Shown here: positions 37,947 to 39,342 of the stretch, piece after piece
Numbering within the stretch: the first letter of the stretch is position 1
How the letters are laid out: the number at the start of each line of letters is the position of its first letter
From: Thalassovita autumnalis
GTDB lineage: Bacteria; Pseudomonadota; Alphaproteobacteria; Rhodobacterales; Rhodobacteraceae
Assembly (NCBI RefSeq): GCF_001458255.1
Contig: NZ_CYSB01000039.1
Location: forward strand, 1-64,000
Length of the DNA stretch: 64,000 nt
Reading direction: 5' to 3'
The notes under the pieces: generated by a model
Seen by the model: only the letters and a program-made list of their open reading frames with translations
Databases searched by the model: none
What the model was told of the DNA's origin: nothing
Position numbers and translations under genes: made by a program

Positions 37947-38369
37947 TCAATCGCTGCCAGACACCTTGCCGCGCAGGGCTTTAACCTCACCGCGTTGTTT
38001 CTTGGCCTCAATCCGGCGGCGTTGGCTGCCCTTGGTGGGTTTGGTGGGAATGCGGCGTTTCGGGCGATGGGTGGCTTTTTCGATCAGCTCCACCAGCCGT
38101 TCCCGCACCAGATCGCGATTGCGGGCCTGACTGCGGGTTTCATCACAAAACAGGATCACCGCACCGTCTTTGGTCCAGCGCCGCCCGGCCAGTCGCTTCA
38201 GACGTGCCTTCACAGGACCGGGCAGATTGGGCGACCGCTCAGCCTCAAAGCGCAATTCGACCGCGGTGGAGACCTTATTGACGTTCTGTCCACCGGGGCC
38301 CGAGGCCCGGATGAACTGTTCGCTCAACTCCCAGTCGGCGATGCTGATTTCGTCGGTGACACGTAACAT
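37947..38369 (-). CDS. arfB: Alternative ribosome-rescue factor B (peptidyl-tRNA hydrolase ArfB/YaeJ)
   Basis: The 140-residue protein has a release-factor-like catalytic domain with the GGQ motif in ASGPGGQNVNKVST. A basic C-terminal tail rich in Lys and Arg (residues 105-140) enters the empty mRNA channel of stalled ribosomes, and the GGQ then cleaves the peptidyl-tRNA. It serves as backup to tmRNA trans-translation. The start at 38369 (MLRVTDEIS) matches the family N terminus. About 40 bases upstream on the same strand ends a structured, terminator-tipped transcript (38411-38590) that could control this gene. Confidence 0.92.
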   Translation of the reverse strand: MLRVTDEISIADWELSEQFIRASGPGGQNVNKVSTAVELRFEAERSPNLPGPVKARLKRLAGRRWTKDGAVILFCDETRSQARNRDLVRERLVELIEKATHRPKRRIPTKPTKGSQRRRIEAKKQRGEVKALRGKVSGSD

Positions 38370-38410: not shown

Positions 38411-38449
38411 CAAAAGAAAAGGGCCGCACCTGATGACAGGCCCGACCCC
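38411..38449 (-). terminator. Terminator upstream of arfB
   Basis: On the minus strand GGGTCGGGCCTG-TCAT-CAGGTGCGGCCC forms a 12-bp stem with one mismatch and two G-U pairs, followed by TTTTCTTTT. It ends 42 bases before the arfB start, so it closes either a separate small RNA or an attenuated arfB leader. Confidence 0.75.
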
Positions 38450-38516
38450 AAGGGTTGAAGGAGGTGGTCCGGTTAGGTTCCTACCAACTCCAGCGGCTCA
38501 TGAGCCAAGGGTTGCC

Positions 38517-38573
38517 TCAGCTCCGATCCTCCAGAATTGTCCCGATACCGTTCTCCATGATCCCATTAGACAC
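38517..38573 (-). CDS. Possible 18-residue leader peptide
   Basis: A GTG at 38573 lies seven bases after GGAGG of an excellent Shine-Dalgarno sequence and opens an 18-codon frame (MSNGIMENGIGTILEDRS) ending in TGA. The ribosome site is the best support; there is no homology. Two other tiny frames overlap it: an ATG at 38567 opening 22 codons, and an ATG at 38502 giving MSRWSW, the two sharing an ATGA. The whole frame lies within the candidate structured RNA, so it may be a regulatory leader peptide, or chance. Confidence 0.3.
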   Translation of the reverse strand: MSNGIMENGIGTILEDRS

Positions 38574-38643
38574 TAGAGCACCTCCTTTCTGAAGTTTTGG
38601 ATAACCTCAGCGTGACACAGATTTGCTCAATGTCAAAACAAAA

Positions 38644-39276
38644 TCATGTGGTGCGTGCAGTAAGCGACCCCACGATGATGCGAAATGGCACAAGTGCCAA
38701 CAAAGCCAGCGACAGTTTCACCAACCAGTCCGCGAAACCCAGCGACACCCAGAGCGGTGCAACCGGACCTGCGCCCAGCAGCGGCAGCATTTCACCGGCC
38801 CAGGACACATCATTGCCCGGCTCGATGAAGGTCAGCGCGCCCGAGAATGCAATGGTGAAGAAGATCGCGGTGTCGAGCGACGACCCAATCAAGGTCGAGG
38901 CCAGAGGCGCCCGCCACCATGCGCCTTCACGCAGGCGGTTGAAGACCGCAACGTCGGTCAGTTGCGCCACCAGGAAGGCGGTGCCAGATCCAATAGCGAT
39001 ACGCAGCGTGACCGCCGGATAGGTGTAGCCATCGCCCTGCAGCATAATCTGCGTGCCGATGAGCGAGCAGATCACACCAACGATGAAACCGGCGACAACA
39101 ACGCGACGGGCCGGGCCCACGCCATAGACGCGGTTCATCACGTCAGTGACGAGGAATGCGATCGGATAGGTAAAGGCGCCCCAGGTCAGCCATTGGCCGT
39201 ACAGGAATTGCACCAGGATGTTTGAGGCGACAACAACGGCCGCCATGGCAAGAATGCCAGGGAGATATTTGTTCAT
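38644..39276 (-). CDS. yhhQ: Queuosine precursor transporter YhhQ
   Basis: The 210-residue inner-membrane protein of the VUT/ECF-like family has about six hydrophobic helices. It shows the family stretch TYPIAFLVTDVMNRVYG, with the acid-Asn pair, and IGSSLDTAIFFTIAF. YhhQ imports queuine or preQ bases used to modify tRNA wobble guanine. The ATG at 39276 is preferred to an in-frame TTG seven codons earlier; the ribosome site is weak. It lies upstream of the candidate structured RNA and arfB on the same strand, which adds a translation-related neighbourhood. Confidence 0.9.
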   Translation of the reverse strand: MNKYLPGILAMAAVVVASNILVQFLYGQWLTWGAFTYPIAFLVTDVMNRVYGVGPARRVVVAGFIVGVICSLIGTQIMLQGDGYTYPAVTLRIAIGSGTAFLVAQLTDVAVFNRLREGAWWRAPLASTLIGSSLDTAIFFTIAFSGALTFIEPGNDVSWAGEMLPLLGAGPVAPLWVSLGFADWLVKLSLALLALVPFRIIVGSLTARTT

Positions 39277-39342
39277 GTCAGTTTTCCGTTTTGACAAGGT
39301 AGCGGCGACTTGGCCCCTTTTTCATAAAGGGACGGGCGGCGT

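Follow-up and report, generated by a model that had tools for sequence, protein, structure and literature searches.

The Caulobacter small RNAs, of which Landt 2008 is reportedly the source, include the family that is catalogued in Rfam as CC2171 (RF01867). Our search of the literature on CC2171/RF01867 by title has returned, among the matches listed, just two papers that concern this family, i.e. the Rfam 15 paper and a paper whose list of predictions in Mesorhizobium includes a CC2171-family copy (PMC5596092); in the accessible parts of the literature found among these matches, no open reading frame (ORF), no complementarity to 16S rRNA and no spread in the Rhodobacteraceae are described for CC2171. 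In Caulobacter crescentus, according to the accessible part of the report, ribosome profiling has found most of the non-coding RNA regions to be untranslated and two earlier "ncRNAs" to be translated (PMC4117421). Further small RNAs are described as follows in the available portions of the respective papers: SprF1 of Staphylococcus aureus binds the ribosome with its purine-rich 5' end, competes with the loading of mRNA and attenuates translation (PMC8938821); SisA-D, i.e. the alphaR8 (MmgR) family, are class-wide alphaproteobacterial small RNAs that carry a 10-mer resembling an anti-Shine-Dalgarno (anti-SD) sequence (PMC12559287); and Spot 42 and rnTrpL are dual-function small RNAs, with ORFs of 15 and 14 codons (PMC10339803, PMC10117765). 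The sigma-T-controlled small RNA GsrN, which the available portion of its paper equates with ccna_R0081 (PMC5869019), has been rejected as the identity of the RNA that is described here, since CC2171 lies elsewhere on the Caulobacter chromosome, as judged from the gene number.

Here, we have analysed an element on the minus strand of a 64,000-nucleotide stretch of DNA from Thalassovita autumnalis (the window), located between the genes yhhQ and arfB. The whole RNA gene is predicted to span about 190 nt (38412..38602, minus strand) and to be a divergent relative of RF01867; a blastn search has found one copy of the element in the window's own genome. The original prediction had called this element unrecognised, and at the gathering level this description stands, with zero Rfam matches in the window; it does not stand against a permissive Rfam search, in which RF01867 matches across the full length of the model, at 30.4 bits and an E-value of 6e-5, i.e. 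short of the gathering cut-off of 75 bits. The candidates ctRNA_p42d, H19_3, CRISPR-DR47, mir-553, suhB, Atu_Ti3 and BjrC68, with E-values of 0.18 or worse, have been judged to be chance matches.

Relatives of the element have been found by blastn in 27 of 61 genomes, every one in the window's family, the Rhodobacteraceae. The covariance model R1, which we have trained on 27 family sequences only, matches 225 of 246 family genomes, and the conservation beyond close relatives on which the original prediction depended is therefore present; in an order-level draw, R1 matches 60 of 61 genomes, all members of the window's family, and in a class-wide draw, it matches 35 of 289 genomes, 30 of which lie outside the family. 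R1 gives only low scores, of 20-40 bits, in non-family genomes; in 29 of the 30 non-family genomes, a match of RF01867, each at an E-value of 0.0019 or lower, coincides with that of R1, while RF01867 reaches its own cut-off in 10 of the 289 genomes. Two models that come from different groups converge on the same loci, which argues for a common CC2171 lineage; their agreement rests partly on a conserved 5' block that is common to both models, and is supported by the ORF, the closing stem and the terminator that have later been found at those loci. In our alignments, this 5' block of CC2171, GAAAGGAGGUG.UC.AGUGUCU, is conserved in the lineage of the window. These comparisons place the window RNA in the CC2171 lineage, as a divergent branch of it, even though it falls short of the cut-off.

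Weak matches of RF01867 by themselves have not been used as evidence, since some of them are antisense 16S sites: four weak sites in genome G105 are copies of 16S by their position, and one of these has been confirmed as SSU rRNA. The loci L072 and L095 have been left out where the start pattern did not fit. No R1 match has been found in 21 of the 246 family genomes, and a lax search of 20 of these has given a best E-value of 0.0235; the copyless family genomes (about one in twelve; G022, G061, G090 and others) are at least 90% complete, and are candidates for loss or for strong divergence.

Of 397 genomes of the phylum, 75 contain a 21-nt start motif, which the window copy does not carry exactly; all 75 belong to the window's class, and none of the 236 genomes of other classes has the motif. 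A reversed control pattern of the motif has given no matches in the 397 genomes. The scan of a named collection with the same motif has yielded at least 120 stretches and, going by their names, we take 119 of the 120 that are listed to be alphaproteobacterial or unclassified proteobacterial. The sole stretch among the 120 listed whose title lies outside the Proteobacteria, L263, is titled as a metagenome-assembled genome of the Acidobacteriaceae and has an ORF of 104 codons; the motif there probably belongs to an extended Shine-Dalgarno (SD) sequence of some unrelated gene, unless the contig is misbinned. Genome G048, from another family, carries two copies of the start motif (C1:805112 and C1:2922049), which suggests paralogues.

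The 16S rRNA 3' end has its reverse complement in GAAAGGAGGTGATCCAG, the most conserved segment of the RNA. In the window, the corresponding extended SD, AGAAAGGAGGTGCTCTAG, is located at 38573..38590 (minus strand) and has two mismatches with respect to GAAAGGAGGTGATCCAG, which is exact in many relatives; expressed as complementarity to the 16S 3' end, the family consensus extends over 17 nt, of which the window copy, GAAAGGAGGTGCTCTAG, mismatches two. The window's own draft genome holds no exact 16S site; in the congener L148, the 16S gene (RF00177) runs into CTGGATCACCTCCTTTCT, with the Rfam match spanning 16 of the 17 complementary bases and the 16S end being taken from the gene sequence. 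The computed duplex between the SD of the window and the 16S tail has an energy of -26.6 kcal/mol, compared with -25.2 for the best of 46 gene starts in the window, and the duplex of the family consensus reaches -32.4 kcal/mol. The RNA thus has a purine-rich, SD-like 5' sequence that is complementary to the 16S 3' end, as is seen in ribosome-binding small RNAs. Elsewhere in the window's genome, at locus L117 (G000:C4 near 77370), another long 16S complement, GAAAGGAGGTGAGCCATG, stands as the SD in front of a 79-codon ORF that begins MRVLVLLLLIPTSLFA.

The extended SD is followed, at normal spacing, by a mini-ORF of 18 codons, MSNGIMENGIGTILEDRS (38517..38573, minus strand), with a GTG start and a TGA stop, which lies between the arms of the closing stem and is missing from the original prediction. 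The boundaries of this ORF are strikingly uniform among relatives: of 71 unique ORFs of the Rhodobacteraceae type, 68 have exactly 18 codons, with loci from the named scan having been assigned to the type by a peptide motif. Among the 18-codon ORFs of this type, the stop is TGA in 32, TAG in 23 and TAA in 13, and TGG is observed at the stop position in none, compared with 11.0 expected if the positions varied independently; premature stops occur in frame in one of the 71 ORFs, compared with 39 and 43 of the 71 in the other two frames. In 42 unique non-family loci that have been found by the models, the mean length is 24.5 codons (sd 3.1), and 41 of the 42 fall within 18-30 codons, compared with 7.6 on average and 18 at most over 1000 sets of shuffled bodies. 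The loci that have been selected with the 21-nt motif fall within 14-30 codons in 76 of the first 80 and in 38 of the other 40, i.e. in 114 of the 120 listed. From the first 80, we have kept 65 loci (two are too short, and the remainder are near-duplicates), of which 62 lie within 14-30 codons in frame 0; the other two frames have 16 and 13 such loci, and resampling gives a mean of 15.5 and a maximum of 27. As judged from this pattern of starts, stops and lengths, the RNA is very probably translated.

Six loci depart from the range of 14-30 codons, namely three of Azospirillum with 57-59 codons and three others with 31, 33 and 104 codons. In the Azospirillum loci (L192, L216 and L225), the 5' block leads to an ORF with a hydrophobic N-terminus that resembles a signal peptide; this ORF may be an unrelated gene that has a perfect SD, or else a mini-ORF that has been extended into a small secreted protein. 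At the opposite end of the range, ten loci titled as Bradyrhizobium or Bradyrhizobiaceae (L173, L179, L183, L184, L196, L205, L207, L220, L235 and L236) have an ORF of 14 codons, the last ten of which (KRCHLAGIAR) look nearly invariant; this ORF holds CACCTCGCTGG, which is matched downstream by CCAGCGAG, and the variant seems to form a subfamily of its own, in which the anti-SD-like segment comes very early.

The fold of the window RNA brings the two ends of the element together. The 5' arm of the closing stem P1, AAGGAGGTG (38579..38587, minus strand), is the SD, while the 3' arm, CACCTCCTT (38458..38466, minus strand), lies within a segment that resembles the 16S tail, CCGGACCACCTCCTT; the arms are exact complements at a distance of 112 nt, and, as originally predicted, they close a stable fold. 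The inner palindrome that had been noticed within this fold is also present, as a strong hairpin (approximately 38485..38539, minus strand) that holds the last part of the ORF, stop codon included. The minus strand folds with an energy of -76.1 kcal/mol (z -2.84), and none of 200 shuffles is as good; the plus strand, folded as a control, is ordinary (z -0.97).

The conservation of these helices has been followed in alignments. In the alignment of the 27 family sequences (A1), helix 1 is paired in 100% of the cells, and five of its seven pairs never vary, i.e. P1 in the Rhodobacteraceae is nearly invariant and thus nearly uninformative on covariation; helix 4 of the consensus, which corresponds to the inner hairpin, shows changes on both sides in five of five pairs, with 80.7% of the cells paired, and A1 overall has 34 cells that are changed on both sides, compared with 14.2 when shuffled. 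Outside the window's family, the closing stem has 7 bp and is formed by codons 3-5 and the segment directly before the terminator; within the family, the SD itself takes the place of codons 3-5. Counted on 32 of 61 distinct sequences, a diverse subset of our own choosing, the stem of codons 3-5 has 48 cells that are changed on both sides (17.0 when shuffled), 83.9% paired cells (62.0 when shuffled) and a covariation score of 0.537, compared with 0.194 for shuffled alignments and at most 0.115 for slid ones, where the slid control leans towards the register, as the register has been taken from RNAalifold and the alignment itself. Two other measures do not rise above the shuffles, i.e. the pairs that show double changes (5, compared with 5.0) and the further pair types (12, compared with 11.7). 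A duplex test of own against swapped partners is weak, the own partner being preferred, at the 10% level, in 18 of 79 non-family sequences and, for codons 2-7, in 2 of 54 family sequences. The covarying stems that the original prediction called for are therefore found in the inner helix within the family and in the closing stem outside it.

The segment that resembles the 16S tail is placed differently across the lineage: in the window's family, it is CCGGACCACCUCC, located 3' of the ORF, while elsewhere it is GGAGCAGCCUCC, located inside the ORF, as seen in a consensus fold of 18 sequences. An alternative segment inside the ORF, CUGGAUC..GCCUC, has been recognised by eye only, and RNAalifold has not found this SD pairing in a larger non-family group of 43 sequences. 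The pairing of the SD with the body of the RNA ranks, against shuffles of the same RNA, in the best 5% for 20 of 41 RNAs of the Rhodobacteraceae type and for 34 of 71 others, and the best site for this pairing lies inside the ORF in none of the 41 and in 65 of the 71. According to these models, the 16S-like segment can mask the SD, as is individually clear in about half of the RNAs, which supports the earlier claim of a near-perfect ribosome site that is masked by a structured element. When the initiation region of the window RNA is held open, the fold is less stable (-62.4 instead of -76.1 kcal/mol), and four of the nine bases of the anti-SD arm are unpaired while five pair elsewhere; the opened fold, as modelled, is at best weak support for the release of this arm as a seed.

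Both ends of the gene carry predicted signals for transcription, which a simple strict consensus scan at the locus has not reported, either as a promoter or as a terminator; we have assigned the promoter by its conservation in 71 relatives, and the terminator by its fold and by comparison with relatives. The predicted -35 element, TTGACA (38631..38636, minus strand), is conserved in 71 aligned upstream regions of the Rhodobacteraceae type (T 71, T 70, G 71, A 59, C 61, A 57). The predicted -10-like element, CACGCT (38609..38614, minus strand), follows at 16 nt, with its A conserved in 71 of 71 loci, its T in 67 of 71 and a preceding TG in 71 of 71, so that the arrangement common to the 71 loci is TTGACA, 16 nt and CAnnCT with TGN before it. 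From the position of this promoter, transcription is predicted to start at about 38602. At the other end, an interrupted G+C-rich stem that is followed by TTTTCTTTT (38412..38449, minus strand) is predicted to be an intrinsic terminator, and it agrees with the terminator that had been placed 42 nt ahead of arfB; a simple finder has located terminators in 159 of 194 members, at a median of 124 nt past the start codon.

The genes that flank the element bear on the main proposal of the original prediction, namely that the element acts in cis as a translation-sensing leader that governs termination ahead of arfB. The upstream neighbour yhhQ (38644..39297, minus strand), which we take to be a queuosine-precursor transporter gene, has a homologue, likewise upstream and on the same strand, in 60 of the 61 family loci, and is a stricter neighbour than the downstream gene (37947..38369, minus strand), presumably arfB, which has one in 54 of the 61; the arfB start at ATG 38369 is our choice, as the mechanical ORF begins at GTG 38429. 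These neighbours have been counted in fetched flanks of about 1.3-1.5 kb per locus, and the counts of loci, for neighbours as for ORFs, are not independent, since several genomes occur twice and the named and other genome sets overlap; unique counts are stated where duplicate genomes matter. The frequent presence of arfB in the family, and a terminator so close to it that there is little space for a separate arfB promoter, speak for a leader; against it, arfB is missing from seven of the 61 family loci, is sometimes located hundreds of bases away (739 nt in L041) and, like yhhQ, occurs in none of the flanks of 53 non-family loci, where the neighbours are mostly unrelated (51 single proteins, and groups that mostly come from one genome or genus). 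The element does not, then, always precede arfB, and since the link with arfB is lost outside the family and the element has its own promoter-like region and terminators, it looks like an autonomous gene rather than an arfB leader, as judged from its sequence context. We consider a leader for arfB improbable as the main function, though a lineage-specific effect on arfB in cis, through read-through of the terminator, is possible; the independent small RNA, which the original prediction had offered as its alternative, has proved to be the better half of that guess. Such an RNA could act in trans, with the anti-SD-like segment CCGGACCACCUCC pairing with the ribosome sites of mRNAs and the mini-ORF having a secondary role, i.e. 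protecting or timing the RNA. The autonomy of the gene, its filing as a small RNA in Rfam and the likeness of its conserved C/U-rich segment to the anti-SD 10-mer of the alphaR8 SisA-D RNAs, as described in the available part of their paper (PMC12559287), are in keeping with this explanation; nevertheless, it leaves the strict length of the ORF without a reason, and in 65 of the 71 RNAs outside the Rhodobacteraceae type the SD-pairing segment lies within the ORF, where translation would cross it. We regard a trans-acting small RNA of this kind as rather unlikely.

The mini-ORF itself could be the purpose of the gene, if the RNA were the messenger of a functional micropeptide (MS..L E..VGTV.. 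in the Rhodobacteraceae), as its open frame, fixed start and stop and strong SD would permit. We have tested this reading twice, and no purifying selection on the peptide has been detected either in the family tree or in 18 pairs from other groups. In a family tree of 50 members, which has been built from about 660 nt of upstream sequence, mostly yhhQ, and for which two of the 52 unique ORFs (L010, of 17 codons, and L028, of 24) have been left out of the codon test, the changes by codon position are 127/138/133 and the synonymous changes are 118, compared with 117.8 expected; the 18 pairs from other groups, which are close and independent, give 35/48/33 and 31, compared with 33.9 expected. The one sign in favour of selection is found at codon 2, which encodes Ser in 50 of the 52 unique family ORFs and has changed ten times at the third position and once at each of the others, a signal that nucleotide constraint could alternatively produce. 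As there is no synonymous excess in either data set, and as the peptides look unrelated between groups (MSH..., MSN..., MSS...), we have rejected the functional peptide as the main reading and hold it to be distinctly improbable. The converse explanation, that the RNA is purely structural and non-coding, with an ORF that arises incidentally from conserved RNA motifs, draws on the conservation of the start region as RNA, on its pairing with the 3' end and on the treatment of the family as a small RNA in Rfam; it conflicts with a constraint on length that holds across groups with unrelated bodies, with the interchange of the three stops to the exclusion of TGG, and with the lack of any such pattern in frames +1 and +2, and we find it highly improbable. 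A start, a stop and a length that are fixed, together with a peptide that is free to change, form the pattern that would be expected if the passage of the ribosome were selected and its product were not; this suggests that it is the act of translation that matters, and not the peptide.

We therefore favour, at somewhat better than even chances, a reading in which the element is an autonomous RNA gene of the CC2171 lineage that acts as a ribosome-gated mini-mRNA, where translation itself is the function. This reading is built on what sequence comparison establishes, i.e. the homology, the conservation of the promoter, the structure, the boundaries and the length of the ORF, and a peptide on which selection is not detectable; transcription as drawn, the loading of the ribosome and translation are what we infer from these sequences. 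The transcript would start at its own promoter and stop at its own terminator and, when no ribosome is bound, its SD and start region would be folded away by the 16S-like segment and by the stem that closes the 5' and 3' ends. The anti-SD tail of the 30S subunit, almost fully complementary to the SD, would compete with the internal segment, so that the fold would open and the extended SD would pair with the 16S 3' tail, feeding the mini-ORF (of 18 codons in the window). The ribosome would then make a throw-away peptide and, in most groups, would also traverse the masking segment. The function would lie in this occupancy, with the RNA being a decoy for free 30S subunits or a gauge of them; alternatively, the occupancy might gate the stability of the RNA, or might free the anti-SD-like segment as a seed that acts in trans. 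The output would presumably be that of a decoy, a sensor or a trans-acting small RNA. Against this reading speak the filing of CC2171 as a small RNA in Rfam, the mostly untranslated non-coding RNA regions of C. crescentus (PMC4117421), the two mismatches of the window copy to 16S and an SD masking that, in about half of the RNAs, is no better than in shuffles. More tentatively, and as a proposal that may well prove wrong, the 16S tail and its internal mimic would compete for the SD in such a way that the fold, the lifetime and the activity of the RNA report on free ribosomes, while the RNA sequesters initiating 30S subunits.

If this reading were true, a molecular gauge of ribosomes, or a decoy for them, would be hidden in a family that is filed as a small RNA, and a dedicated transcript would be kept for ribosomes to bind and read, offering a handle on how free ribosomes are measured or buffered. 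Micro-ORFs of fixed length that evolve fast would not need to encode functional peptides, which matters for the annotation of small proteins. The spread of the lineage adds to this interest, as a family catalogued as a Caulobacter small RNA is now found in 225 of the 246 Rhodobacteraceae genomes and in many other alphaproteobacterial groups.

Among the described systems, SprF1 is the nearest functional parallel, as it has a purine-rich 5' end; the binding of the ribosome by the window RNA is a prediction from its sequence. SprF1, in the available part of its description, is also antisense to a toxin mRNA; no toxin partner is apparent next to the window RNA, which does have a mini-ORF whose length is fixed and, internally, a 16S-like segment. 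SisA-D differ from the window RNA in sequence (the suhB/mmgR match has an E-value of 1.5), and the accessible text on them describes no extended SD or mini-ORF. Spot 42 and rnTrpL resemble the window RNA in having a very short ORF but, going by the parts of the papers at hand, their peptide is functional, while here no selection is detected; of the features by which dual-function small RNAs are recognised, the window RNA has the conserved short ORF with a start, a stop and an SD, and shows no detectable purifying selection on the peptide. With CC2171 itself (RF01867), the window RNA shares the 5' block GAAAGGAGGUG.UC.AGUGUCU, the organisation as a single gene that ends in a terminator, and the places of occurrence in 29 of the 30 non-family genomes; the two differ in the 3' half, in the closing stem, where the window RNA uses the SD instead of codons 3-5, and in the 16S-like segment, which follows the ORF in the window RNA and lies inside the ORF in CC2171. 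The Rfam output for RF01867 makes no mention of an ORF or of 16S complementarity. The gene family is thus a known one, CC2171, and what is new here is its ORF, its complementarity to 16S rRNA and its very probable translation.
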